Source: a virus
Length of the DNA: 58,212 bases
Virus record (IMG/VR): IMGVR_UViG_3300024433_000001
Coordinates: 1 to 58,212 of that record
Reading direction: 5' to 3' (one strand)
In this document: positions 3,156 through 42,488 of the stretch, piece after piece
How positions within the stretch are numbered: the stretch's first letter is position 1
Layout: each line of letters opens with the position of its first letter
The notes under the pieces: model-generated
Databases searched by the model: none
Seen by the model: the letters and a program-made list of their open reading frames with translations, nothing else
Told to the model about the DNA's origin: nothing
Position numbers and translations under genes: made by a program

Positions 3156-3620
3156 TCACAGGCATTGCAAGGCCCCCTTCGGATTTTTCAGCCCTCCATC
3201 TCTGTTATCGGCGTGCACATGTCCATCTTCATAATCGTCTCTTACCCAATCAAAATGATTCCGGGCCGCTTCGCCGACTGCCCGCTGCGGAATGCGGTCG
3301 CCCACCCGAACCACCTTAGCATAGAAATCCATCGCTATTCCACCATGGCCCGGCAGATGCTTCGAGTGCCGCGATACCGGCCCGCCATTGTCCAGCCAGC
3401 CGAACCGCGCGCCAAGCGCCGCATTGTCCGCCCGTGTCCGCGTACCGCTTGTGACGATGATTGCGACCTCTTCACCTTTCAACTGGCAGAGCTCGGCCCG
3501 CACCGCTTCAGCGCTGCGGATAAGCGACGGATGCACCGTGACAAGCCCTTCGCCATTCGCAAACTCGTACAGCCGGAAATGCTCGGACAACGGGAAATCG
3601 TTTGGTCGTTCACCCATCAT
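3156..3620 (-). CDS. Peptidase M15 family endolysin-like protein
   Basis: 154 residues with the zinc-peptidase pattern: SEHFRLYEF at the N-terminus, SGTRT, then His and Asp ligands in SRHSKHLPGHGGIAMDF, and the final HxH in DGHVHAD. This is the M15_3 layout of phage peptidoglycan peptidases, cutting the peptide stem. There is no signal peptide or membrane anchor, so release needs a holin or pinholin. The ATG overlaps the stop of the 8.5-kb gene upstream (ATGA), implying translational coupling. Confidence in the family is high; lysis versus virion-associated use is not settled. Confidence 0.88.
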   Translation of the reverse strand: MMGERPNDFPLSEHFRLYEFANGEGLVTVHPSLIRSAEAVRAELCQLKGEEVAIIVTSGTRTRADNAALGARFGWLDNGGPVSRHSKHLPGHGGIAMDFYAKVVRVGDRIPQRAVGEAARNHFDWVRDDYEDGHVHADNRDGGLKNPKGALQCL

Positions 3621-6600
3621 CTCGTTGTTGACCTTCCTGGACGCGTGAATTGACGGCCCCGAAGTGTTTGGCGACGTTGAGCAACCCCCTCACCCTTAAC
3701 TTTATCGCGTCCCCACCACGTCTCAAGTTTTGTATGTAGTTCCCTAGCCCATTTCTGGCTTTCTTCAACCATCTCACGTTGTGTTGGTGTCAAAAAGTCG
3801 CGCATGAACCGTTTCCGGTCAGTGTCGGATAGTCCGTACAAAGGATCAATATAGAGAAGAGATCGTTTGAAGTTCTCGACAGTGTTTTCTTCACCAACAT
3901 ATTTCTTTTTTGCGGCAAGAAACGCTTTATAGTTGTCGTTGATAGCCGCCCACTTCATGTTGCGGATTTTACTGGGCGGGAAGATCCCCTTCGTTTCTTT
4001 GCCCAAAACCGTTTTACGATAAGCGGTTTTCAACTCCAATGTTGCATAATACGCGTTCAACCTTGGTTGCGATACGCCAATAAAGTTTCGGGCGAAGTAA
4101 TCCGCTTTCACCGTTTCGCCAGTCTGTTTGGCAAGGCCCCTAACGGCCCGAGCCTCTTCCGCTAAACCTAGGAAGCCCGCTGCGGCCTCAATACGGCTAA
4201 TTGCCTTTGGCCGAGTTGGCTCGGGGAACAACCGCATACCTGTGACAACTTCCATCACCGTCTTTACATCGGGACGTATACCGAATACCACCTTTTTGAC
4301 AGGAGCGAGCGCCGCCTGTTTTGCAAGTTCACCCAAAGTGATTTGGTTATTAGCATATTTGGGATAATGCTCTATAATCTCGTTTATACCGAACACTTCA
4401 AGAACGTCGCCCAACGCGCCAGCGCTTCGCAATAGACGGATAGAGCCGTCTGGGTTACGCCCAAAAATAATATGTGGGGTTGCGCGTTCCCAACTGCTAA
4501 GCTCATCTTCTTCATCGGGGAACATTAAATGATTCCAGAACCACATGGCGCCATACAACCACAAAATCCGCGACATTGCTAATGTGCGAAATGCTGTGGT
4601 TGCAACGGTTTTGCCAACCGCTCCGGCTACAGCGCCCGTCTTTTCTTTGGCTTTGCCATAGACATAAGAGTTGCCAATCAACCGATATGTCCGGCCCATG
4701 TTGATTTCCTGCCAACTCCAGAACGGATACCAATGTTGGCGTATGACATCACCAAGTTCTGTCAGGTTTCTATAATCTCCAAGCAAATTGCGCGCCATAT
4801 GGGCTGCTGCAATATCGTCACCCAAATCTCGCCGAAGCGCTTCGACAACCCTTGGGTTTGCGCCACCATAATGAATGAGGTTGCCTTGTTTGAACTGGTC
4901 TCGGTAATAGAGAAAAGCTGCGTGCCGCAAAAGGTTCTCACGAAACATAGTCCATTTTTTTACAAAATCAAAATAATCGCTTACAATAGTCATGGCGTTG
5001 GTTTGTGAAGTATAGAATCGTTTGAATAAAGCCAAATTCTTTATGTCTGGGATTTCTGCGCGGGTCATTGAAGAAGAAATTACACATAGATCACGGGATA
5101 GCTCAAGTTCTTCAGTGATATTCTCGGGGTTACGATAAAATGCCCATAATTGGTCTACCGTAGGGACCACATATCGCGACCGTAATGCGCCTGGCGCCGC
5201 AGCAATGAGAGGATCAAGGTCACCTGTAAAATTACGGGCATTGTAGCCAAGCCCACGCTTGGGGTTCATCAACGTCCATTGTTTCCAATGACCCATAAGG
5301 TTACGCGATATACCACGTTCTACTTCGTTTGCCGTAGGCTTTCCCATCGCATTAAGTTGATGGACGATTTCTGTAGGCAATACCATTGCTTTGTGTGGCC
5401 CACCCATAGCGATCACCGTCTTTATCTGATCTCTGGATAGGCCTGGGAAAATACCGCTGCGTTCCAGATTTTCTACTGCTGCCGCTGGAATTGTATACAC
5501 AGGGAAAAACATGTTGCCGGATACGGATTGCCAGGGTTCATATCCATTGGGGATTAGGTCGTCCCATCCCAGATATTTGTCGCCAAGCCGATCTTGAACC
5601 ATTTTGCGTTTGTCGTTAAGCGCTTTGAAAATGCCTTTTGCCGCAATCCCAGCTTTTTGGTCTCCATACCGCATGATCAGATAGTTGACAAACGAAAACC
5701 ACTGATCCGAACCTGTGTCCAAAGATAGGTCATCTTCTTCAACAACCAAATCATCAAACTCGCCTAGCTCGATTGCACCCTTGTCGTACTCGCGCTGAAT
5801 CATATTTATAAACATCGCCAGCCGCTGACGGTATGGCATGGTTGGGTCCAGTTCCCAGAGTTCGTCGCTTAATTCTACTGCCCTAGCCTTCTCGTCCCTA
5901 TTCAGGCCGCGACCTTCTTCACGTGCTGTTTCCTGAAGCCCCCGGATAGCGCCTCGTAATTGTCTGATCTTTGCTACAACCTTCGGCCCACCAACAAGCG
6001 CCTCGAAGTTCATGGCCTTAGCGCCTGCCTTAAGCTCATCCAACCTATCATATCGGTCGCCGATCATGCGTAACGCTTTTTCTTTCTCGACCTCAACCAT
6101 CGCCTCAACCATCCATTCGCTTTCAGCTTGGATATAATCGGTATTGTAATCGTACTCTTCCGGCAGGCTTTCGCCTTTGACACGTTTTTTCTGGAACCCT
6201 CTTTTCATTCGTCGTAGCTTTCTGCCACCTAACCCACGACGCAATTTGAGCTTTGTCAGGACTTGCTGATGATAATACTGTTTCCGGTCAATTCCTTTCA
6301 GGATGCCGTATTCTTTAAGCATTTCACCAAGTACGTCAAGTAGCCGCTTCCGCTTGTTAAGCGCTTGCTGAATGGCCGGTGAACGCGCAACCGCGTTTCT
6401 AAATGTGATGAGATTTTCTTCAAGTTCTTCTATAGACTCATAACCGGATCGTAACGGTTCGCCAAACTTCCTGACAGACTCGTGCATGTTTAACATTATC
6501 AGATACCATTCAAAGGTGTCTTTTTCTTCAGGCGTTTTGAGGCTGCTTAATACATCAGCGATTTCCTCCTGTGTTTTTAGCAAAAGTTCATCTATACGAC

Positions 6601-9600
6601 CCCTGAACAACCGAAGTACTTCGTTTACAACAGCAAACTCGTCGGTATTGGGCAAGTGCTGATAGGCGCGAGTGGCTCGATGGCCTAACACCCTTAAAGT
6701 TTCTCGGATGCGCTCGGTCATTGTGAGGGTCGTAACGCCGTGCGCCGCTTTTCGCCGTCGTTCAACTTCTGGACTTAACGCTTTAACTGGGAGTTGCTTG
6801 GGACCGTACTCCGGCGGTTGCGATTCCCGAACCACACGACCTTTGACTTCTGCTCCGAAAAAGCGCTCATCTTGCTGATTGGCTTTGGGGCTTAGGATGG
6901 ATGTCATATTGTCCAAGTCGAAACCAGCTAAGATATGACCTTCTTCAAACAAACGGTCCAGGGCTAGTCCGCGATCAGAATCGGCAGTGGGAAACCCATG
7001 AACGCCGATGATGACCCTTGTCGCACCAAATCGACGCGCTTGGCCCCGAAGATAATCCAGGGCGGGCTTATAATGGTTAAAAATCCCGTATGGAACAGAT
7101 TGGATAGCGTTCAACTCATTCCGCGGGTTGCTGTAAAGCACAGTAACTTTATCTGCATCTGTTTCAATAGCCGCAAATATCTTGGCTGTCTGACTTGGCG
7201 TGACATGTTGTTTGCCCAATAAGCCTTGTTCTCGAGCGTACACATCTCCGCGCGCCGATTCTGGAAGCGCAGCAATACCTTGTTCTATAGTCTTATCTCT
7301 GTCTTTGTAACTCAAAAGGTTGTAAGTGTCATGGTCTATGATTATGTGTCCCCGCAAACCTGGAGCATACTGATGATACTGCTCAGTGACAAGGGCATCA
7401 GCGAACGACATAGTAACGTCGCCGCTAGGATGGTTATGGAGAAGATAGTAACCGTCTGCGCCCAACCGCTCGATACGGCGTTTCATGGCCGCGAAATGCC
7501 GCAGGGACGCTGATGGTTTATGCGTGGATGGACGTGCGACAGTAAGCCCAGGAAGCCCGGCAGTCATTCCCTCATGGGCGACAATCCGGTCTCCTTTAAC
7601 ATAAATTATTCGGAAAGTTTCAATCCGAGGATCGCGGTACACTTGAAGAAGGGCCGCCAACTCCCCTATGTCCGCAAACGTCTGGCCTCGGAGATCGATA
7701 CGACCTTTCCGGGCGAGGGTGTCTGTGATTCGAGTTCCGAGCGTAACAACTCCGCCTGTCCTCGGGGTAACACGGCGTCGTGCCGCCCGCTTAGCGGGTA
7801 GTACACCTCGAGCACGTTCGGCGGCAAGGTCCGCGGCTTGAAGTGCGTCAGCAAGGGTTTCTTGCGGGACATATTCAGGCTCCTTTTCATCTATTATAAA
7901 CGGTTTAACAGCAGATTGGTAGTCTTTTTTTGGTTCTTTAACCAAGCCCTGCTCCCCGGGTTTCGGTTCTACGGTTTCCTCATACGCCTCTTTTGGTTCC
8001 GCCCGTAACTGTCCGATAATATCGTCAACGCGCTTTGTACTTTCTTTGTTTTGCTCCAGCACAGCCCGCTGCCGAGTCAGCGCATCAACAGCGCGTTCTT
8101 TGTCGCCATACAAGTCAACAGCTTGTTTTGCGGCCTCATCAAGCGAGATATCCAGCCTGAACAGTTCGCCTTGGGCTTCTACGGCAGGAGCAGGCTTGGG
8201 CGCAACGCCTTTCTCGGCAAGCGTGGGTTTGGCCGACACCACCCCTTCCGGCACCTCGGCAGGTCCCTCAAAATCTCTAACATCGAACAGGTCGGCATCT
8301 GCTTTCCCTGTATCAAACAACTCGCCTCGCGCATGGGCTTTCTCCAAACGTTCCGCTTCAGTAGGCTCAGCCGTTTTACGGGCCTGAACTTTGCGTGGTC
8401 GTATAGGTTCGGCATAACGCTCAACGGAAGCGCGCGCAGGTTTCTTTTTCTCTGCCGCAGCAATTTCAGCTTGTTGCCGCTGAAACTCCTCAAGCGCGTA
8501 TGGATACAGCGGGTTGTCGGCGCGAATCACCTCTTTGACGTTAAGCGACTCAAAATCGGCTACATGCACCGTATCGTCATCTGTCAAATCTTTTCCGCCA
8601 CGGTCGCCAGCGTCCGTTACGCGCCGCCATTCGCCCTGGAAATATAGAAGATCGCCAATGTTAAGTTCCGTTTCGTTGATTTCGTGGGTCGGTTGGCGTG
8701 GCACGCGCTCAATAAAACCTTCGCCCGTAACCTTGGCTTCGGCGCCTACATCCATTATGGTAGACCCAACAAAAAGCGGCCTAAGCTCGCTTGGGTCGGG
8801 ATTGTCGGTTACGGGCAACCCCAGATCCCGCGCTCGAGCAAGGGCCGTATCCCATGCAAACACACCCCCTCGCTGCCAAATGCCTGGCGGTAAACGGCCA
8901 CCAAAATCGTCCACTATATTAAGGCCGGTTGGCGGTTGAATACCCGATTGCCGCATCTCGGCGCGAAACAAACGTAACGGTTCGTTGACTTCTTTGCCTT
9001 TGGGAAGTTTCCGGGGCTTCCTTACCCGTTTGGGTTGTGCGGTAGGTTCCTCGCTAACGATTTCTGCCGAAACAAATATACCTTTATGGCCGGCATTTCT
9101 AACTGCTTGTTCTGCCCCAAACGCTGTTTTTGCGCTAACAGTGAAATGGCGGTCTACATCCTCTGGGACCTTCCTCGGACCAACTGTAACTATCTGGCGA
9201 AGCGTTACATCCCATTCTTGTTCAGCACGAGGCCGAACCTTGCGCTTAGGCTTTTCAGTAGGAACAATAGGCGCGACCAGATCAATGCCAGCCTCATGAA
9301 GTTGGCTGATTTTGCCGCCCGTCAACGGTCCGAAGGCGTCAGATTCTGTAACTTTCCGCCCATCATATTCGCGGACACGCCAACCCTTTCCCCTCATACT
9401 GGTCCATCGCCGGCCCAGTACGCCCAAGGCGCGATTTTTCAGGACAGCTTCGGGCAGTGGCGCTTCAGGCGGCATGGCTTCTTCTGGAACCAATGCCGGG
9501 GGGGCCAATTCTGCTTCAGGGACGGCTTTCTCTGGTTCGGCGGGGCGTTTGCCCTCCGGTACGGATATCGGCACTATGGCGGCCCACCCCTTGTGCCAAT

Positions 9601-12136
9601 TGATATATTTCCTGCCTCCGGCGATTAAACCGGGATCATCCAGCTTTACCCGAGGAATACCCTTTTTGGTGAAATACAATGTTCCACTAATAACGGCGCC
9701 GGCTCCGGTTATGTCTGGAACAACAGCCTCAACCCTATCTCCATTTTTTAGTCCCGCTTTTATTGTTTCCTTTTTCCCAAGCGTAGCACGGCCTTCAAAG
9801 TATTCTTTCCGTTCTTTGTCGCGCACCTTTGCTAGGTTAGGATAAATCTCTTTATACTCATCGCTCGATAGCCATTTGTCCCTACCGCCATATTGGGCTA
9901 TCTTCCCCTTTTCATATATGCCAAACTCTTCTTGCGTCATTTCCCAAGGCTTTTTCTCGCTTACTTGTTCCGATATTTCGGGCACGGCAATCCCCAGACC
10001 CTCAAGGGTTTCTGCCGCGACCGTACTTCCATCACGTTCGCCCCCATGAATTGTAAATAGTGCGAAAGGTTCACCGCCCCCGGGCCGTTCCTGCATACCA
10101 ACAAACTCGGCAGTAGGCTTTGCCTCTTTCTTCGCCTCAACATCAACCGTCTCGCCCTGTAACGCGACAAGCCAATGATGTAACGGATCGAGTTCGATTT
10201 CCCCCTTTTCGGTATCCATTGGAAGGTTAACGTCCGCTTCGCCAACACGTTCTTGTTGTTCCTCCGAGAATCCACCACCGACAGGTTGCTCATGGTCTGA
10301 TATGCGGACCGTGCCCACATATTCGCCTTCTGCGTCCGCAACGTCTATGTACCGCGAACTGTCGCTCCACCCCCTTTTCCCCTGAACGGCAAACCCCTGA
10401 GATTCAATCTCTTTTTCTGTTTTGGCAACAGCGTTATCGTACAACGACGTTAGCCTCTTATATTCGGCAAGTTCTTCTTCTTCCGCTTGTTGTTTAAGAC
10501 GTTCTTCTTGAACCTCTGTTTGGGAAGCCCACAAGTCTTCGTCAATAACATTTTGCCGTTGTGCGCGCGTCAGGGTAGCCCAGTCTTCTCCGCTAAACAC
10601 CGTGATATATGGATCGCCATAAGGATCTAAGGCTGTCAAAGTCGGGTCGGGCGGTTCCCCGATCCTTGCCTTTTCCTCAGCGGGACGAACGGGAGAAACT
10701 AGTTCGCTTGTTTGAGAGGCCACCTCAGCAATATCAGCAGCCTGCTCGTCTGTGATGGTATCATTAAACAAATCATTGAGCTTGTCTATCCGATCATCGG
10801 TGGACATTGAAGATATTTCGCTATCGGGAACACCGAATGCACGCAACGCCTTCTCGATATCTCGTTTGCGATTAGCGTTTCCAGCAAGATATCCAGGAAC
10901 GCTAAGGGCGTATTGTCCGCCGCGCAACACCGACATGGATAACGCCATATCTGGCACTTGTTTTGCAAAGGTGATTGCCGCATCGGGAAGGTTCTGTAAC
11001 CCGACCTTGTTATATTCGTTCTGTAGGTTGCCTAAACCGTTCACAAAGGCCTCTGCGGCTTCCTCGCCAAGGATTTCCCGACCTAACCCCTGGAATCCGA
11101 TAGCGCGATTCAACGCGCGCCACGCTTTACTAACAGCCGGAACACGCGGCACCTTACCCTTTAGTAATTTGATCTTGGCAGCTAACGCTCTGATTTGTGA
11201 TGGGACAAGTTTGCCCCCTGTTTGTCTGAGCGTTTTGGCCCCAGGGATTTTGCTTAAAAGCCGACCTGCCGGAAAACTGCCCATTTCGATATAACGTGTT
11301 ATTGCAGCGCCGCCTGCGGCCTTTACCAAACTTTCAAAAACCTCAGCCCCTTCTTTAGACAACCGCAATTGGCCTTTCTCATCAATGTTAAATTGACCAG
11401 CACGCAGTTCACCAAACCGCGTAACCGCCTCGGCGGCAGTAAACCCCAAAGGACCAAGAGCCATTGAGACCATATACGGCGTCATTTCGTGAGCGCCCAA
11501 TACTGCGGTGGCAGGAATTGTCTCATCTCGCTCAACACGTTCTTTTTGCCAAGCCTTCACTGGTGTAGCATATTGTTTGCTCAACTGATGGAGTGTTTCG
11601 CGTGCGCCAAGACGTTCGGGCTCGTTACGGGCGCCTGACACCATAAACCGACTAGCAAGTTTCCGAATGTTGATGTCGGACAAGGGATTCATATAAAGTT
11701 GATTGCCCAACCTGAAATCAGACAACTTCTCGATTTCCGCCTTACCAGTATCAAGATTGCCATATCTGGAGGCATAGGCCAAGTCTTGCCGATTCGTCCA
11801 CCAATTCAGAGGGCTGGTCTTTGCCAGAGTAGCCACAAACCCAGGTATCTCTGGGCCGCCGATTTCTTCCCCAGCACGTCTGACACGTTCGCCAATGCCA
11901 ACAGGGGGCAATACGGTTTGCGGGGCTAGTCCAGGGACGGTTTGGCCCATAGGGGTTTGTTCTGCTGTCGGCTGTTCGAGTAGCGCCGTTGGCGCTGACA
12001 CTGGTTGTCCCGTATGCTTCCCGATAAAGACATCGGGATCAAACCCGGATTCCCCGTGGGCGTCCAGGAAAGCGTCTGGATCAAAGATGGGCTGCTTTGT
12101 ATGAGACTTTATAAAAGCGTCTGGGTCAAAAGGCAT
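3617..12136 (-). CDS. Large polyvalent protein with RadC/JAB domain, probably ejected with the DNA
   Basis: 2839 residues, the largest gene. The N-terminus has three repeats of FDPDAF/FDPDVF ending in His. Around residue 1560 is a JAB/MPN metal-site motif HNHPSGD within a RadC-like domain (about 1480-1640). Residues of about 2290-2500 resemble the LPD38-type domain of large polyvalent proteins (NLLGDYRNLTELG ... PFWSWQE), and a hydrophobic stretch follows near 2540. Charged, low-complexity linkers join the modules. Such proteins are carried in podovirus virions and injected, where they are thought to counter host defences. The second ATG (12136) overlaps the previous stop and has GGAGG 6 nt upstream. 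Confidence 0.85.
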   Translation of the reverse strand: MPFDPDAFIKSHTKQPIFDPDAFLDAHGESGFDPDVFIGKHTGQPVSAPTALLEQPTAEQTPMGQTVPGLAPQTVLPPVGIGERVRRAGEEIGGPEIPGFVATLAKTSPLNWWTNRQDLAYASRYGNLDTGKAEIEKLSDFRLGNQLYMNPLSDINIRKLASRFMVSGARNEPERLGARETLHQLSKQYATPVKAWQKERVERDETIPATAVLGAHEMTPYMVSMALGPLGFTAAEAVTRFGELRAGQFNIDEKGQLRLSKEGAEVFESLVKAAGGAAITRYIEMGSFPAGRLLSKIPGAKTLRQTGGKLVPSQIRALAAKIKLLKGKVPRVPAVSKAWRALNRAIGFQGLGREILGEEAAEAFVNGLGNLQNEYNKVGLQNLPDAAITFAKQVPDMALSMSVLRGGQYALSVPGYLAGNANRKRDIEKALRAFGVPDSEISSMSTDDRIDKLNDLFNDTITDEQAADIAEVASQTSELVSPVRPAEEKARIGEPPDPTLTALDPYGDPYITVFSGEDWATLTRAQRQNVIDEDLWASQTEVQEERLKQQAEEEELAEYKRLTSLYDNAVAKTEKEIESQGFAVQGKRGWSDSSRYIDVADAEGEYVGTVRISDHEQPVGGGFSEEQQERVGEADVNLPMDTEKGEIELDPLHHWLVALQGETVDVEAKKEAKPTAEFVGMQERPGGGEPFALFTIHGGERDGSTVAAETLEGLGIAVPEISEQVSEKKPWEMTQEEFGIYEKGKIAQYGGRDKWLSSDEYKEIYPNLAKVRDKERKEYFEGRATLGKKETIKAGLKNGDRVEAVVPDITGAGAVISGTLYFTKKGIPRVKLDDPGLIAGGRKYINWHKGWAAIVPISVPEGKRPAEPEKAVPEAELAPPALVPEEAMPPEAPLPEAVLKNRALGVLGRRWTSMRGKGWRVREYDGRKVTESDAFGPLTGGKISQLHEAGIDLVAPIVPTEKPKRKVRPRAEQEWDVTLRQIVTVGPRKVPEDVDRHFTVSAKTAFGAEQAVRNAGHKGIFVSAEIVSEEPTAQPKRVRKPRKLPKGKEVNEPLRLFRAEMRQSGIQPPTGLNIVDDFGGRLPPGIWQRGGVFAWDTALARARDLGLPVTDNPDPSELRPLFVGSTIMDVGAEAKVTGEGFIERVPRQPTHEINETELNIGDLLYFQGEWRRVTDAGDRGGKDLTDDDTVHVADFESLNVKEVIRADNPLYPYALEEFQRQQAEIAAAEKKKPARASVERYAEPIRPRKVQARKTAEPTEAERLEKAHARGELFDTGKADADLFDVRDFEGPAEVPEGVVSAKPTLAEKGVAPKPAPAVEAQGELFRLDISLDEAAKQAVDLYGDKERAVDALTRQRAVLEQNKESTKRVDDIIGQLRAEPKEAYEETVEPKPGEQGLVKEPKKDYQSAVKPFIIDEKEPEYVPQETLADALQAADLAAERARGVLPAKRAARRRVTPRTGGVVTLGTRITDTLARKGRIDLRGQTFADIGELAALLQVYRDPRIETFRIIYVKGDRIVAHEGMTAGLPGLTVARPSTHKPSASLRHFAAMKRRIERLGADGYYLLHNHPSGDVTMSFADALVTEQYHQYAPGLRGHIIIDHDTYNLLSYKDRDKTIEQGIAALPESARGDVYAREQGLLGKQHVTPSQTAKIFAAIETDADKVTVLYSNPRNELNAIQSVPYGIFNHYKPALDYLRGQARRFGATRVIIGVHGFPTADSDRGLALDRLFEEGHILAGFDLDNMTSILSPKANQQDERFFGAEVKGRVVRESQPPEYGPKQLPVKALSPEVERRRKAAHGVTTLTMTERIRETLRVLGHRATRAYQHLPNTDEFAVVNEVLRLFRGRIDELLLKTQEEIADVLSSLKTPEEKDTFEWYLIMLNMHESVRKFGEPLRSGYESIEELEENLITFRNAVARSPAIQQALNKRKRLLDVLGEMLKEYGILKGIDRKQYYHQQVLTKLKLRRGLGGRKLRRMKRGFQKKRVKGESLPEEYDYNTDYIQAESEWMVEAMVEVEKEKALRMIGDRYDRLDELKAGAKAMNFEALVGGPKVVAKIRQLRGAIRGLQETAREEGRGLNRDEKARAVELSDELWELDPTMPYRQRLAMFINMIQREYDKGAIELGEFDDLVVEEDDLSLDTGSDQWFSFVNYLIMRYGDQKAGIAAKGIFKALNDKRKMVQDRLGDKYLGWDDLIPNGYEPWQSVSGNMFFPVYTIPAAAVENLERSGIFPGLSRDQIKTVIAMGGPHKAMVLPTEIVHQLNAMGKPTANEVERGISRNLMGHWKQWTLMNPKRGLGYNARNFTGDLDPLIAAAPGALRSRYVVPTVDQLWAFYRNPENITEELELSRDLCVISSSMTRAEIPDIKNLALFKRFYTSQTNAMTIVSDYFDFVKKWTMFRENLLRHAAFLYYRDQFKQGNLIHYGGANPRVVEALRRDLGDDIAAAHMARNLLGDYRNLTELGDVIRQHWYPFWSWQEINMGRTYRLIGNSYVYGKAKEKTGAVAGAVGKTVATTAFRTLAMSRILWLYGAMWFWNHLMFPDEEDELSSWERATPHIIFGRNPDGSIRLLRSAGALGDVLEVFGINEIIEHYPKYANNQITLGELAKQAALAPVKKVVFGIRPDVKTVMEVVTGMRLFPEPTRPKAISRIEAAAGFLGLAEEARAVRGLAKQTGETVKADYFARNFIGVSQPRLNAYYATLELKTAYRKTVLGKETKGIFPPSKIRNMKWAAINDNYKAFLAAKKKYVGEENTVENFKRSLLYIDPLYGLSDTDRKRFMRDFLTPTQREMVEESQKWARELHTKLETWWGRDKVKGEGVAQRRQTLRGRQFTRPGRSTTR

Positions 12137-13713
12137 CATCGGCCTCCAACGATCGCAAGAATTTGTGTTGCACGCGGATCTTGAGGATTCGCCTGCGCCC
12201 ATTCTAAAGCTGCCTGATATTCGGCTAGTGCCGTTGTTGGCACTGGCGCACCTGCAGTTGGTGGCGGAGCCCAACCCCTTTGTGGGGTTTCCGTTACTGG
12301 CGTAGGCTGACTTAATGGTGCTAGATTAGATGTGTCTACGGGCACAACAGATTCGCGTGCAGTTCTTTGGCGATTAGCCCGAAACTGCGGCAACCTGGAT
12401 GTGTTTACGGGCACGACAGATTCAGGTGCAGTTTTTTGGCGATTAGCCCGAAACTCTTGGAATCCAGAAACTATCGCTCTGGTCAAAGGCGGAAGCGCAT
12501 TATGCACCAGTTCAGACCAAGTCCGGGTTTGGGCAGTCGGCGGTGGCAGATTAGTGTCTTCAAACTCACTGGTCTGCGCCAAATCCATAGCGGCTTGAGC
12601 AATCGTTTCCAAAGTGACCCCGTCGGGTAACCCCTGTAATCCATAGAAAGTAAGCGCACTCATGAGCGCATAACCAGCTTCCGTTTCGCGGCCCATTGCA
12701 TCAAAAAATGCAGATGACGGAAGGCCCGTGTATGGAATGAAAATATCCACAAGTTCCCCAAGTTTCCCCGCAGAACCATATTGCTGTAAAGCAGATGGCT
12801 TCACTTGTTCTTCGGACGGGGCTTCTACAAGTTCTGTGTATGCGGGGGTCTCGCCCTTGAACGTAACGGCGCCAAGACCCGTCCCAGGGGTTCCTACAAC
12901 TCGTGGACGCTCGAGGGGTGGGGGAACCAATGTCGTTACCCTTGGGGCCGAAGGTTGAGCTGTAGTCGCCGATGAACCTGGCCTTGGCACGATTGCTTGT
13001 TGGCGCTGAGGCGGCGCAATCTCATAAATACCCGTACTTGGCGTTCCTACAATACGGGGTTGCATAAGTTGTCGTTGGCGATATTGTTGAAGGGCGTCAG
13101 CTTCCTGGCCCCGTAGGCCAAGCAATTGCTGGCGGTATTGTTGATCGCCACGAAGCTCTTGGCCCCGTAGACCAAGCGATTGCTGGCGGTATTGTTGATC
13201 GCCACGAAGCTCCTGGCCCCGCAGACCAAGCTCCTGGCCCCGCAGACCAAGCGATTGCTGGCGGTATTGTTGAAGGGCGGCGGCCTGCTGGCCTTGTAGA
13301 TCAAGTGCCCCTTCAGCGCGCGTTTCCTGTCTACCAAACCGCTGTTCTGCAAGCGCATCTTGGGCCCATTGTCGAATCTGTTCATTTTGCCTTAGTTGTG
13401 CGTTAATCGCATCTTGTTGTATTTGTTGACGCAACTGATAACCCAACACAGTCTGTGCGCGTGCACCCGCCAAACCCCTATCGCGTATCGTTTGGTAATA
13501 TGGCATAAAGTTTCCCTGCCACGCAGGTGCCATACGAGTCAACGCGCCAGCCGTACTAGCGGCAGCACCATATCTTTGGCGGGTGCTCAGACCACGTTGC
13601 CTTTGCCAGTATAATGGCCGGCTTGGCAACGAAGAAAGCGATGTTATGCTACGGCTCGGCCCATATTTGGCCTGGGCGCGGCCCCTTCGTTGTGTTGATA
13701 AACCTAAAGGCAT
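12136..13713 (-). CDS. Gln-rich repeat protein, probable internal virion protein
   Basis: 525 residues. Residues of about 120-220 are a Gln/Arg/Leu-rich tract of repeats built on QQYRQQSLGLRGQEL, predicted helical or coiled coil. Residues of about 430-475 contain a second duplicated unit (FRANRQ ... VVPV(N/D)TS). Pro-rich linkers join a helical C-terminal third ending in ALEWAQANPQDPRATQIL. Its stop overlaps the start of the large polyvalent protein, so the two are probably translated in a fixed ratio and act together, like ejection-protein sets of podoviruses. That role is inferred from position and composition only. Confidence 0.75.
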   Translation of the reverse strand: MPLGLSTQRRGRAQAKYGPSRSITSLSSLPSRPLYWQRQRGLSTRQRYGAAASTAGALTRMAPAWQGNFMPYYQTIRDRGLAGARAQTVLGYQLRQQIQQDAINAQLRQNEQIRQWAQDALAEQRFGRQETRAEGALDLQGQQAAALQQYRQQSLGLRGQELGLRGQELRGDQQYRQQSLGLRGQELRGDQQYRQQLLGLRGQEADALQQYRQRQLMQPRIVGTPSTGIYEIAPPQRQQAIVPRPGSSATTAQPSAPRVTTLVPPPLERPRVVGTPGTGLGAVTFKGETPAYTELVEAPSEEQVKPSALQQYGSAGKLGELVDIFIPYTGLPSSAFFDAMGRETEAGYALMSALTFYGLQGLPDGVTLETIAQAAMDLAQTSEFEDTNLPPPTAQTRTWSELVHNALPPLTRAIVSGFQEFRANRQKTAPESVVPVNTSRLPQFRANRQRTARESVVPVDTSNLAPLSQPTPVTETPQRGWAPPPTAGAPVPTTALAEYQAALEWAQANPQDPRATQILAIVGGR

Positions 13714-38769: not shown

Positions 38770-38799
38770 TTGACATATGCGGGATATGTCGTGTAAAAT
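38770..38799 (+). promoter_or_regulatory. Strong promoter with an operator in its spacer
   Basis: TTGACA (38770-38775), 18 bp, TAAAAT (38794-38799). Between them GACATAT (38772-38778) and ATATGTC (38784-38790) form a perfect 7-bp inverted repeat with a 5-bp centre, so a bound repressor would block RNA polymerase. It drives the eight-gene plus-strand block. Confidence 0.75.
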
Positions 38800-38841: not shown

Positions 38842-39342
38842 ATGAAGAATAAGGCAGTAGTAGCAATACGCGGCGGGCGAATAGTCGTGCACGTGCCCAA
38901 CGCGACGGTGCGCAGTGACGGCACTATCTGGTATAGGGGCCGCTATCCCCTGCTTGACAGCGAGGCGGAGGGCGCGCTGCCGGCGGCCGAGGCCGCGCGG
39001 CTTATCAAGGCGGGCAAGCTGGACGATATCCCGGCCTCGATGTACGCTCACATGGGCACGACACAGAGCGGGATGCGGGTGATGTGGTCTGACGACTGGG
39101 ATGCCGAGCGGCGCGCCAAGTACGATACCGAGCATCCGGGCGCCAAGGAGCGCCAAGCGATACGCGCGCTCCTTGCCCAGGCTGAGGACCTGCGCCACCT
39201 CAGTCGTGAGGACAACGCAGGCAGGTACATCCGGCTGACCGTCCGCGCCGCCTTGCGACTATCCGCATGGCGGGAGCAGTATCCCGATGAGGCGCGCGCA
39301 GAGGATATGGCTCGGCTACAAGACCTGGGATTCCTGTGTTAA
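38842..39342 (+). CDS. Plus-strand block gene 1, unknown
   Basis: 166 residues. An N-terminal beta domain (AVVAIRGGRIVVHVPNATVR) is followed by a helical half with many Ala, Glu and Arg (KERQAIRALLAQAEDLRHL, then the C-terminal MARLQDLGF). First gene after the regulated promoter; GGAGG lies 11 nt before the ATG. GC-rich coding unlike the neighbouring minus-strand genes. First-expressed genes in such blocks often target host functions, but no family is recognised. Confidence 0.7.
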   Translation: MKNKAVVAIRGGRIVVHVPNATVRSDGTIWYRGRYPLLDSEAEGALPAAEAARLIKAGKLDDIPASMYAHMGTTQSGMRVMWSDDWDAERRAKYDTEHPGAKERQAIRALLAQAEDLRHLSREDNAGRYIRLTVRAALRLSAWREQYPDEARAEDMARLQDLGFLC

Positions 39343-39372
39343 CTAGGCCAACAACAAAAAGGAGACCGAGTG

Positions 39373-39546
39373 ATGAAGAACGTAAGCTACACGATCGAAA
39401 ACCAGATACTGGTCATCCAAGTCGACCTCAGCAAGCGGTTTGGCCCGTCCAAATCTGGCAAGACGCAGATCATTGCCACGAGCGAGGGCATAGTTGCGCT
39501 CGAGAGCGGGGCCCAGTTGGGCCTCAATGTATTTTGCCGCGAGTGA
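39373..39546 (+). CDS. Plus-strand block gene 2, small protein
   Basis: 57 residues starting MKNVSYTIENQILVIQVDL, with a strand-rich N-terminus and a C-terminal IIATSEGIVALESGAQLGLN. AAGGAG is 8 nt before the ATG. Its first eight residues and upstream leader match those of gene 6 (40726), evidence that one was built from the other. Similar small proteins occur in phages as unknowns. Confidence 0.65.
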   Translation: MKNVSYTIENQILVIQVDLSKRFGPSKSGKTQIIATSEGIVALESGAQLGLNVFCRE

Positions 39547-39553
39547 CAAAATA

Positions 39554-39626
39554 GGCGGGGACTTGCTCCCCGCAGGGCGGCCAGGGTTGGCCGCCGTGTC
39601 GGGAACAAGACCAGAAGGGAGGAAAC
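39554..39626 (+). repeat. Double-hairpin intergenic repeat, copy 1
   Basis: Two stems: GCGGGG with CCCCGC, and GGCGGCCA with TGGCCGCC. A conserved GAACAAGACCAGAAGGGAGG end then supplies the Shine-Dalgarno site of gene 3. Copies 2 and 3 occur at 40291-40367 and 41091-41166. Confidence 0.8.
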
Positions 39627-40079
39627 ATGATAATGACCATACTATCTGCAGGGGCGCTGGATGCGGCTGACACCGATCAGCTGGTTGCGCTAAGGGATGC
39701 CGTGGCGGATGAGCTGGCGCGCCGAACGGGACAGCCCGCCGCCAAGGTGAGGGTGGCGGTCGATTTTGGCGCGTACAACGCGCGCCGCTACGGCAAGCCC
39801 TGGATTGGACGTATAATCGCTTGGCCTGTGGGTGATAAGCCGACGATCACATGGGGTGCCTACATAGGCCGTCACGCATACACCGGCGCCCCTAACGGAG
39901 GCGAGGTAGAGATCATGGCCTATCCCGGCGATATTGTGCGGTGGGGCCAAAAGGACCATCGCGGCCATGACACAGAGGCCCATTGGGGTGTGGTCAACAT
40001 AGACCAGACCATTGCGGAGTTGACCGCTGCCGAGGCGCGGCAGCGGTATGTGGACAAACCGAAAGAGGAGGACGAGTGA
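39627..40079 (+). CDS. Plus-strand block gene 3, beta-barrel-like domain protein
   Basis: 150 residues. A helical N-terminus (LVALRDAVADELARRTGQ) precedes a compact domain with IAWPVGDKPTITWGAYIG, PGDIVRWGQKD, HWGVVNI and the ending LTAAEARQRY. The same domain forms most of gene 6. Proteins with the GDIVRWGQKD pattern are widespread unknowns in bacteria and phages. GGAGG lies 4 nt before the first ATG; the ATG at 39633 is also possible. Its stop overlaps the start of gene 4 (TGATG). Confidence 0.75.
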   Translation: MIMTILSAGALDAADTDQLVALRDAVADELARRTGQPAAKVRVAVDFGAYNARRYGKPWIGRIIAWPVGDKPTITWGAYIGRHAYTGAPNGGEVEIMAYPGDIVRWGQKDHRGHDTEAHWGVVNIDQTIAELTAAEARQRYVDKPKEEDE

Positions 40080-40288
40080 TGACAAAACAAACCAAGGACG
40101 CTCTAAAGGCGGCGCAACTACGGGTGTTGGCAGTACAGCAGGAGCAGCGCGCTGCGGCGCACCTGCGCCAGGCGGCTAAACCCATCTATGCCGGCCAGGA
40201 CGTTATCTGTGCTGACAAGGCGGCGGAATGCCGGGCGTTTGCGGCGCAGAATCGCGCCCAGGCGGATCTGCTTGATCCGCAGCGCTAA
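40079..40288 (+). CDS. Plus-strand block gene 4, small helical protein
   Basis: 69 residues, almost entirely helical and Ala/Gln-rich (LRVLAVQQEQRAAAHLRQA). Its ATG overlaps the stop of gene 3, so the two are coupled. GGAGGACGAG precedes the start as in genes 2 and 6. Function unknown. Confidence 0.65.
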   Translation: MTKQTKDALKAAQLRVLAVQQEQRAAAHLRQAAKPIYAGQDVICADKAAECRAFAAQNRAQADLLDPQR

Positions 40289-40290
40289 TG

Positions 40291-40367
40291 GCAGCGGGGA
40301 GCTTGCTCCCCGCAAGGCGGCTAGGGTTGGCCGCCGTGTCGGGAACAAGACCAGGAAGGGAGGAAAC
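40291..40367 (+). repeat. Double-hairpin intergenic repeat, copy 2
   Basis: Stems GCGGGGAGC/GCTCCCCGC and GGCGGCTA/TGGCCGCC. The C-to-T change relative to copy 1 turns a C-G pair into a T-G pair, so the RNA helix is kept. It ends in the Shine-Dalgarno site of gene 5. Confidence 0.8.
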
Positions 40368-40371
40368 TACC

Positions 40372-40644
40372 ATGAAAACAAAAGAAAAAGTCCGATTCCG
40401 TCTCGGTCCAATCGTGGCTACACCCGGCGCACTCGAGGCCCTGTGCCAGAATAGCGCCAACGGCTTGAAGTATTTACGGCAACACGTCTTGGGCGACTGG
40501 GGCGAAGTCTGCGCTGACGACAAGGAAGCTAACGATCAGGCGCTGATTGACGGCAGTCGACTCCTGAGCGCATACACCCTATCCGATGGCACCAAGCTGT
40601 GGATCATCACCGACGCAGTTATTGACACCCAGGGCAATCGGTAG
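40372..40644 (+). CDS. Plus-strand block gene 5, 'plasmid-related' family protein
   Basis: 90 residues. The pattern LGPIVATPGALEAL, then a His-x-x-GDWGEVC segment, RLLSAY and DGTKLWIITDA is that of a short, widely spread family often annotated as plasmid-related protein, found on plasmids, phages and chromosomes. Its function is not known. GGAGG lies 8 nt before the ATG. It is the best-recognised member of this block and shows the block shares genes with other mobile elements. Confidence 0.8.
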   Translation: MKTKEKVRFRLGPIVATPGALEALCQNSANGLKYLRQHVLGDWGEVCADDKEANDQALIDGSRLLSAYTLSDGTKLWIITDAVIDTQGNR

Positions 40645-40725
40645 GGCACAACCTTGCTACTGCCCGATCAGTATTGATTAGCAAGGGCAACCCATGGCGT
40701 GTTTTGAGCACAAGGAGGACGAGTG

Positions 40726-41175
40726 ATGAAGAACGTGAGCTACACAATCGCAACCGATGAGGCGACCGTCACCTTAGGTGCGGGAACCAAAAACAGACGA
40801 ACAATGATGGAGCAAAGGGTAGTAATCACATGCCGTGATGAAAAGCCTTGGGTTGCGCGTGTAATAAGTTGGCCGATAGACGCTAGGCCAACGATCACGG
40901 GGGGCAGTTATCGGAGCCATCGCGAATATGGTGATGATCTTAACGGCGGGACTGTACAACTTATAGTCTCCCCGGGCGATACCGTGTGTTGGGGTGTAGG
41001 GAACCATCCAGAGACCTATTGGGGTATAGTGCATAGGGGTAAGGGCATTGAGGAGTTGACTGCTGCCGAGGCGCGGCAGCGGTACAATGGCGGCGGGGAT
41101 TTGCTCCCCGCAAGGCGGCCCGCAAGCAGGCCGCCATGTTGGGAGCAAGGCAAACCAGAAAGGAACGGGAAATGA
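40726..41175 (+). CDS. Plus-strand block gene 6, chimera of genes 2 and 3
   Basis: 149 residues. It begins MKNVSYTI like gene 2 and continues with a domain homologous to gene 3 (ISWPIDARPTITGGSY, PGDTVCWGVG, ETYWGIVH, ELTAAEARQRY). Where gene 3 soon ends, this copy reads on through the hairpin repeat, adding a Gly/Arg/Pro-rich tail (NGGGDLLPARRPASRPP). That tail is the translated repeat and is probably a by-product. AAGGAG with 8 nt spacing precedes the ATG. Confidence 0.7.
   Translation: MKNVSYTIATDEATVTLGAGTKNRRTMMEQRVVITCRDEKPWVARVISWPIDARPTITGGSYRSHREYGDDLNGGTVQLIVSPGDTVCWGVGNHPETYWGIVHRGKGIEELTAAEARQRYNGGGDLLPARRPASRPPCWEQGKPERNGK
41091..41166 (+). repeat. Double-hairpin intergenic repeat, copy 3
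   Basis: Stems GCGGGG/CCCCGC and GGCGGCC/GGCCGCC, with a longer second loop than the other copies. It overlaps the 3' end of gene 6 and carries the AAAGGA site of gene 7. Confidence 0.75.
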
Positions 41176-41807
41176 TGAATAGAATTGAAAAGGCTCGACA
41201 AGCACTCGCGCGGTTTGAAGACCGGTTCCGTGCCGAGATCGTTCCCGCCGGCGCGCCGGACCGGCGAAATCTACAGAGGGCGGCTTGTGCCGAGGCCCAT
41301 CAGCGGGCTTGTCTGCCACGGAATATCAGGCGGCGACTCGCCTTGGTGGATGCAATTGGTAGTGCCCGTAAAAGCGAGAGGCTTCGGCAGGCATGGGCGT
41401 TGAGGAAGGCCGAGCCGGGATATCAACTACGGCAAAAAGTGTTCAAAACACTGCGCGCTATGGGGTTCCGGCGGGAGAAGCGCACATCGGGAAAGTCCGT
41501 ATATTATATTCGCGACGGCTATCGGGTCCGAATCAGCGACCATGACGTGCCTGACACGCCGGAACGCGAATACAATTGCCAGAATGGCGGTTTCGGCTGG
41601 GCGCACAGTCCAGACTCACTTGTGATCAATCAGTCTACAACTGAGCTCGACGCGGCATGTTGGCTAGTTGGGGTCCGCTCAAAATTAAGGCGGGGACAGC
41701 TAAGGATAAGAGCGGTATGGCGTTCAGAAAGGAGAGTAAAATATGACAACGATAACGAGCCTGGAAGAATTACTGGTGCTAGAGAAAAAGGGCAAGATTA
41801 TTGTTAA
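41172..41807 (+). CDS. Plus-strand block gene 7, unknown
   Basis: About 211 residues. A basic helical N-terminal part (IEKARQALARFEDRFRAEI) leads to a segment with FRREKRTSGKSVYYIRDGYRVRISDHDVPDTP, a small beta module that recurs in phage unknowns. The last 40 residues are Arg-rich and overlap gene 8 by 65 nt, so the functional protein may end earlier. AAAGGA lies 7 nt before ATGATG. Confidence 0.6.
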   Translation: MMNRIEKARQALARFEDRFRAEIVPAGAPDRRNLQRAACAEAHQRACLPRNIRRRLALVDAIGSARKSERLRQAWALRKAEPGYQLRQKVFKTLRAMGFRREKRTSGKSVYYIRDGYRVRISDHDVPDTPEREYNCQNGGFGWAHSPDSLVINQSTTELDAACWLVGVRSKLRRGQLRIRAVWRSERRVKYDNDNEPGRITGAREKGQDYC

Positions 41808-42444
41808 CGACGATTGCAGGATTGTAGGACATCTTTACGGCGCACTCCCGAACCTGATCGTCGGAGGCAACCTATGGGTTCGAGACGACCTGATCGCCTT
41901 AGGCGGCCTAGCCGTCGGGGACAACCTAATCGCCAAGAGCGGCGAGCTGACCGCCTTAGGCGACCTGACTGTCGGACGCGACCTGATCGTCAAGAGCGGC
42001 GATCTGACCGCCGGACGCGACCTAATCGTCAAAGGCGGCAACCTGACTGTCAAAAGCGGCGACCTGACTGTCGGACGCGACCTGACCGTCAAAAGCGGCG
42101 ACCTGACCGTCAAAAGCGGCGACCTAACCGCCGGACGCGATCTGACCGTCAGGCGTGGCGACCTGATCGCCTTAGGCAACCTAGCGGTCGAGGGCAAGCT
42201 ATGGGTCGGAGGCGACTGGTACTGGTCCCAGATGTCATTGCCCAATGTTGCTGGCACAATGAAACATCATCGCGTATTGCCGGCGCCTTGGCAACGTAGT
42301 TATTGGGCGGATCGCCTTGGCGTCTCCATCCCCGTAAATTGTTACTATGACGCGATTATCGCCGGCCTGGACATTCCCAAGCTACTCCGGCTTCGTAAGT
42401 GGACGCCAACGGAAAGGTGGATACTTAAGTCGTTACAATCTTAA
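41743..42444 (+). CDS. Plus-strand block gene 8, beta-solenoid repeat protein
   Basis: 233 residues. Residues of about 35-150 consist of some 17 consecutive short repeats of six or seven residues on the pattern (G)DLTV(K/G)(S/R), with one hydrophobic pair per turn, as in a regular beta-solenoid. A C-terminal helical cap (ADRLGVSIPVNCYYDAII) follows. Such solenoids act as scaffolds or, in some families, as DNA mimics; no acidic face is obvious here because Lys and Arg alternate with Asp. AAAGGAG lies before the ATG. Strong terminator 13 nt after the stop. Confidence 0.75.
   Translation: MTTITSLEELLVLEKKGKIIVNDDCRIVGHLYGALPNLIVGGNLWVRDDLIALGGLAVGDNLIAKSGELTALGDLTVGRDLIVKSGDLTAGRDLIVKGGNLTVKSGDLTVGRDLTVKSGDLTVKSGDLTAGRDLTVRRGDLIALGNLAVEGKLWVGGDWYWSQMSLPNVAGTMKHHRVLPAPWQRSYWADRLGVSIPVNCYYDAIIAGLDIPKLLRLRKWTPTERWILKSLQS
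41890..42200 (+). repeat. Tandem DNA repeat encoding the solenoid
   Basis: Units related to CGACCTGACCGTC recur at 18-24 bp spacing with almost uniform codon choice. This regularity opens long spurious frames on both strands and would allow length change by slippage. Confidence 0.8.
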
Positions 42445-42456
42445 TGACAGCAGGGA

Positions 42457-42488
42457 ACGGCTGGTAGAGATATCAGCCGTCTTTTTTT
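42457..42488 (+). terminator. Rho-independent terminator of the plus-strand block
   Basis: ACGGCTG (42457-42463), loop, CAGCCGT (42474-42480), then C and seven T. It lies between convergent genes and stops rightward transcription before the early leftward genes. Confidence 0.85.

Follow-up and report, generated by a model that had tools for sequence, protein, structure and literature searches.

Three double-hairpin units in a phage operon, candidate RNA-processing elements in a position where phages with the same gene family carry hammerhead ribozymes

The early genes of phage T7 are separated by RNase III processing hairpins, which are long and imperfect and lie between the genes of a polycistronic transcript. 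T4-type phages reportedly carry a different repeated element, the promoter/stem-loop cassette (PeSL) described by Arbiol et al., which is found between small accessory genes and is said to aid gene shuffling. The start-associated sequences (SAS) of Cluster K mycobacteriophages are 11-19 copies of a highly conserved 13-bp motif that lies over the SD of many genes, 3-7 bp from the ATG, and is shared between phages; the inverted repeats of ESAS do not support RNA pairing (PMC3203893). Hammerhead ribozymes, finally, were found by Perreault et al. (2011) to be clustered in prophages, where they flank single genes or short gene blocks; cleavage was demonstrated for three such arrangements in vitro and for one in vivo. 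The authors suggest that the hammerheads process long phage transcripts (PMC3088659). Hammerhead and twister ribozymes have common gene neighbourhoods, in which any ribozyme class might occur (PMC10085705).

The DNA analysed here (the window) is a 58,212-base virus record of IMG/VR. Its minus strand carries genes for terminase, portal, capsid, and RecE-like, RecT-like and SbcC-like proteins, and also a single very long ORF of 2885 codons (3617-12274). A plus-strand block at 38842-42444, which we take to be one operon, carries a unit of about 74 nt three times (B1 to B3, Table 1). The unit is composed of a hairpin GCGGGGA-loop-TCCCCGC, two bases, a second hairpin GGCGGC(C/T)-loop-GGCCGCC, and then RTGTYGGGARCAAG with a Shine-Dalgarno (SD) site. 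B1 begins 7 nt after a stop codon and B2 5 nt after one. Among these three leaders, the SD block GAAGGGAGGAAAC is identical in copies 1 and 2 and diverged in copy 3. A repeat search and a covariance model built from the three copies confirm the statement of the preliminary description that each copy holds two GC hairpins followed by an SD site and an ATG. The model scores 98.6 bits for one copy and about 89.6-90.0 bits for the other two, and it detects no fourth copy in the 58,212-base window or its record. The core pattern has three exact occurrences in the window, against 0.09 expected by chance (three mismatches or fewer). The unit hairpins are also among the few strong ones, as only 14 in 58 kb have at least 7 perfect pairs and at least 11 kcal/mol.

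Table 1. Features of the plus-strand block of the window, and hammerheads in records of the same gene family
Feature	Position	Strand	Remarks
Sigma-70-like promoter TTGACA-18-TAAAAT	38770-38799	+	11/12 consensus match; presumed operon promoter, from its position
Operon gene 1, 166 aa	38842-39342	+	ORF; no Pfam match
Short leader A1 AAGGAGACCGAGTGATGA	39359-39376	+	repeat families D6/D7; precedes gene 39373
Small gene, 57 aa	39373-39546	+	ORF
Unit B1	39554-39626	+	double hairpin; 3' end is the SD (GGGAGG) of gene 39627
B1 hairpin 1	39555-39573	+	GCGGGGA-CTTGC-TCCCCGC
B1 hairpin 2	39576-39595	+	GGCGGCC-AGGGTT-GGCCGCC
GGGAACAAG	39601-39609	+	alternative partner of hairpin-1 CTTGCTCCC in B1 (long-hairpin form Y)
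RRYGKPWI-family gene, 150 aa	39627-40079	+	homologues in 26 IMG/VR loci, by alignment
Short leader A2 GAGGAGGACGAGTGATGA	40062-40082	+	repeat family D7; overlaps end of gene 39627
Small gene, 69 aa	40079-40288	+	ORF
Unit B2	40294-40367	+	double hairpin; precedes gene 40372
B2 hairpin 1	40294-40313	+	
B2 hairpin 2	40316-40335	+	
Small gene, 90 aa	40372-40644	+	ORF
Short leader A3	40712-40729	+	family D6; 88% identity over 42 nt to A1 and first codons of gene 39373
Second RRYGKPWI-family gene, mosaic	40726-41175	+	N-terminus as 39373, body as 39627; last ~30 codons through B3
Unit B3	41092-41172	+	double hairpin within 3' end of ORF 40726-41175, directly 5' of ATG 41172
B3 hairpin 1	41093-41111	+	
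B3 hairpin 2	41114-41135	+	
Gene, 211 aa	41172-41807	+	weak HicA-like match, E 0.018, below cut-off
Last operon gene, repeat-rich, 233 aa	41743-42444	+	ORF, repeats
Intrinsic terminator-like hairpin with T tract	42457-42487	+	closes operon
Type I hammerheads, L061	5954-6042; 6928-7017; 7395-7482		each before a different small gene
Hammerhead_II, L062	5208-5273		
Hammerhead_II, L063	3642-3707		
Hammerhead_II, L066	3312-3375		
Hammerhead_II, L067	4178-4241		
Hammerhead_II, L071	3046-3109		
Hammerhead_II, L051	5727-5792		

Comparison of the copies also bears out that the loops are altered and the stems retained, and that in copy 2 one pair of stem 2 has changed from C-G to T-G. Between copies 1 and 3 there are five substitutions at ungapped positions outside the second loop, and all of them spare the 28 paired positions (p = 0.011). 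Compensatory changes on both sides of a pair are absent from the three copies of this one contig, which counts against the processing reading proposed below; the fold is therefore supported by preservation and not by covariation.

The leaders along the block alternate between a short type, A (GAGGACGAGTGATGA, with an ATGA-type overlap), and the double hairpin, B. Genes and leaders follow one another as 38842, A, 39373, B1, 39627, A, 40079, B2, 40372, A, 40726, B3, 41172, 41743, and the B units therefore divide the operon into four two-gene segments. The copies had been described as separating genes, and this applies to B1 and B2. ORF 40726-41175 continues through B3, with its TGA overlapping the next ATG, so that B3 is not strictly a separator. 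Because B3 is translated through, its fold would compete with ribosomes, which again argues against processing. In the gap before leader A3 (40645-40711) another stem could form (CCTTGCTA / TAGCAAGG), and a short stretch reads in frame as MACFEHKEDE. The last gene (41743-42444) is built of tandem 18-39 nt repeats of the GRDLTVKSGDL type, with a weak match to the DUF5649 repeat that is below cut-off.

Genes 39627 and 40726 belong to a previously undescribed family, referred to here as RRYGKPWI, which is found in 27 other viral records (26 IMG/VR loci and one more) and in three genomes or MAGs of bacteria. The members tested gave no match to Pfam or PHROG, and tblastn against GenBank phages and plasmids gave no convincing match. 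A weak match to TetR_C_14 was rejected, being below cut-off. In seven of the 27 records, a type II hammerhead that passes the Rfam cut-off (Hammerhead_II) is located at most 250 nt 5' of the RRYGKPWI gene. It stands directly before the family gene, between the upstream stop codon and the SD, in L062, L063, L066, L067 and L071, and one small gene away in L051 and the record of L090. Across the 900,586 bases that the 27 records comprise, no further Hammerhead_II passes the cut-off, and no hammerhead above cut-off was found in 43 comparison IMG/VR records, which had been fetched for other reasons and are not a random sample, or in 14 control genomes. For seven of 27 versus none of 43, the one-sided hypergeometric probability is 7 x 10^-4, in a non-random comparison that counts near relatives separately. 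L062 and L063 are near relatives, as are L066, L067 and L071, so the independent lineages number about four. Two further results count against a processing role of the units: most family members in the 27 records are without a recognisable ribozyme, and the folding z-scores for leaders of the family do not fall below those for the remaining leaders of the same loci (p = 0.41). The latter value gives no support to the idea that family leaders are generally more structured; hence structure alone is not the mark of the slot, and ribozymes are.

The closest match to the window arrangement is seen in L061, an eighth contig, where three double hairpins precede the SDs of small genes 6039, 7014 and 7479, with loops altered and stems largely retained. 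These copies can be read as type I hammerheads (CCUG-CUGAYGA-hairpin-GAAA-hairpin-UC-CAGG), the core being invariant in all three; the third copy has a single mismatch in each of stems I and II. Their best Rfam score is 16.3 bits, which is below cut-off, and the others are below cut-off or unlisted.

The window thus presents three copies of a structure-forming sequence in a position equivalent to that of hammerheads in phages with the same gene family. We interpret the units as intercistronic RNA elements of one phage operon that occupy a ribozyme slot, and we assign a probability of about 0.5 to their being processing sites. The spacers probably cut or insulate the phage mRNA, since relatives of one downstream gene carry hammerheads in the same place; RNA structure and a processing site, both named in the preliminary description, are on this ground the readings that fit best. 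Each unit would mark the boundary between a two-gene segment and the SD of the next. The long transcript would break, or be protected, at the units, giving each two-gene segment its own mRNA with a defined leader, and the cut might be made by a host nuclease of the RNase III type, specific for double strands, acting on a GC-rich stem, or by the RNA itself. The placement of the units next to SDs, in a block that opens after a promoter-like site and closes with a terminator-like hairpin, is in favour of processing, and we infer transcription as a single unit, folding in the cell and cleavage.

Like the T7 RNase III hairpins, the units would place a long, imperfectly paired hairpin between two genes of a polycistronic phage mRNA; unlike them, they are a single sequence family in three copies, each with two hairpins, and their cleavage is predicted. 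The units resemble the prophage hammerhead clusters (PMC3088659) in having several close copies that flank single genes or short gene blocks, in fitting two hairpins into the space between a stop codon and the SD that follows, and in sharing the slot 5' of the RRYGKPWI gene family. They differ in lacking the CUGANGA, GAAA or UH core and the three-stem catalytic junction. The units match ribozyme clusters in position, copy number, spacing and size, without a hammerhead core or a known ribozyme model.

Relatives of the unit were sought in several collections. No match was obtained in Rfam at the gathering cut-off; with lax filters and E values up to 10, unrelated families alone were matched, by chance and not credibly, which counts against the processing reading. 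The exact core gave one chance match in IMG/VR, within a coding region. The hairpin-1 pattern gave 18, all of them coding or unrelated hairpins (in L025, for example, a single hairpin between structural genes), and the 3'-half pattern gave nine, mostly from one conserved coding region. GTDB genomes contain no copy of the unit, nor do GenBank phages at the DNA level. The unit is likewise absent from 15 terminase relatives and from the 27 RRYGKPWI gene-family records, all of which are distant relatives and many of which are fragments. Two weak covariance-model matches in the former are not in comparable hairpin leaders, and the best one in the latter (L109, 18.9 bits) lies in dense GC-rich sequence that lacks the two hairpins in register. 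In the collections searched the spacer is thus seen in this record alone, and within the record the gene content between its copies varies, so that half of what the preliminary description would have taken as refuting applies.

A role as translational insulators or leader stabilisers, whereby stable hairpins 5' of the SD would block exonucleases or ribosomes that run on from upstream, and would determine how the following gene is translated, appears unlikely to us. The units always stand directly 5' of an SD and ATG, and copies 1 and 2 share their SD block to the letter, as an insulator would have it. They can be likened to a structured form of the mycobacteriophage start-associated sequences, which are repeats with upstream inverted repeats in Cluster K phages (PMC3203893), with similar elements in Microbacterium phages (PMC7302621). 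In both SAS/ESAS and the window, the repeats are at the SDs of different non-structural genes, with inverted repeats directly upstream; the window differs in its three copies, its two separate hairpins, its preserved stems and its restriction to one contig. The conservation between phages that is seen for SAS/ESAS was not found among the 15 terminase relatives and 27 gene-family records, distant and often fragmentary as these are. Copy 3, however, is in frame within the upstream gene, whose TGA overlaps the next ATG, so ribosomes traverse it, which is the opposite of insulation.

The preliminary description had also proposed that the repeats could be recombination points for the exchange of small genes. 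Past reassortment of leaders and genes is in fact evident within the window. The bodies of genes 39627 and 40726 are paralogous, with 50% identity where they align, but the former gene is preceded by leader B and the latter by leader A. A block of 42 nt, comprising leader A and the start codons, is common to 40726 and the otherwise different gene 39373 (88%). The two paralogues split right after a common ...AEARQRY, being followed by a short tail and leader A in one case and by unit B3 in the other. Leaders and genes have therefore recombined in the past, which supports swapping as a past event and not a role of the hairpins in driving it. The corresponding explanation, which we regard as doubtful, would have the units serve as short homology blocks at which RecE/RecT annealing of the phage swaps accessory genes, the hairpins being a by-product or marks of replication-linked breaks. 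It would account for the one gene family under two leaders, for the 42-nt block before different genes and for copy 3 having taken over the 3' end of gene 40726, and the phage does encode RecE-like, RecT-like and SbcC-like proteins. L050 also speaks for it, as three near-identical 40-bp hairpin/SD/start blocks (5954, 6334 and 6821) precede three different small genes there. However, the IMG/VR pattern searches revealed no other phage in which this repeat accompanies different genes, and exchange at the repeat itself is therefore not observed. Moreover, a homology block does not need hairpins, but the stems are free of all five substitutions that distinguish copies 1 and 3. The T4 PeSL is alike in being a regulatory cassette that recurs between small accessory genes and includes a stem-loop, whereas the window units contain no sigma-70-like promoter.

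Returning to the processing reading, the agent of the predicted cleavage could be the unit itself, as a candidate self-cleaving ribozyme of an undescribed class, which we consider quite improbable. The suggestion derives from the hammerhead slot in phages with the same gene family, the two hairpins, a possible loop-to-tail pairing, and the failure to match any known class; on the letters of the unit, the loop CUUGC could pair with (G)CAAG as a pseudoknot. CUGANGA occurs in no unit, a core scanner finds no hammerhead in the window, and RF02276 gives no match at E up to 10. HDV-like, pistol and twister folds were rejected by topology (no P3 hairpin, no conserved core, no Rfam match), and Rfam covariance models of twister, pistol, hatchet, HDV-like and other self-cleaving ribozymes gave no match.

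An alternative fold, Y, consists of one long hairpin of 18 to 19 predicted pairs, in which CTTGCTCCC of hairpin 1 pairs with GGGARCAAG 3' of hairpin 2; Y and hairpin 1 are mutually exclusive. The computed energies of the two-hairpin form, of the same form with an outer stem, and of Y are within a few kcal/mol, and the preferred fold varies by copy. In copy 2 an outer stem GGCA/TGTC is possible from 40290. A bistable switch of the attenuator or riboswitch type, with a ligand or protein choosing between hairpin 1 and Y, is very unlikely: the two forms differ by about 3 to 5 kcal/mol with a preference that changes between copies, and the Y arm GGGARCAAG is kept, its single change turning a C-A mismatch into C-G, but the Y pair counts are not above those of shuffles, and on the + (transcribed) strand no terminator T tract (U tract in the RNA) follows the stems in any of the three units, contrary to the attenuator of the preliminary description.

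The slot 5' of the RRYGKPWI family is recurrently occupied by self-cleaving ribozymes or other repeated structured leaders. It may thus provide a gene-context handle for new classes of ribozymes or processing elements, by the same logic as the work on hammerhead and twister neighbourhoods, and it bears on the question of why phages place self-cleaving RNAs between small accessory genes.

Several other leaders were noted. L066 (2506) and L067 (3372) each carry, 5' of another gene, an additional hammerhead that is type III-like and has the complete core. Among other members of the family, L046 has four start-associated repeats. The repeated leaders of L057 (5895-5995 and 6851-6951) are promoters (TTGACATTGTGGCCAC with a CTATAAT-like -10) rather than hairpins. 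A further repeated leader of the family is present in four copies in L048 (3776-3879, 5266-5370, 5896-6003 and 6760-6866) and in one in L047 (5872-6003), and comprises a long hairpin and a second hairpin ending at the SD (TCAGGGG..GGAGTG). Six pairs of the long hairpin are kept through two-sided changes, and this leader may be an undescribed regulatory RNA.
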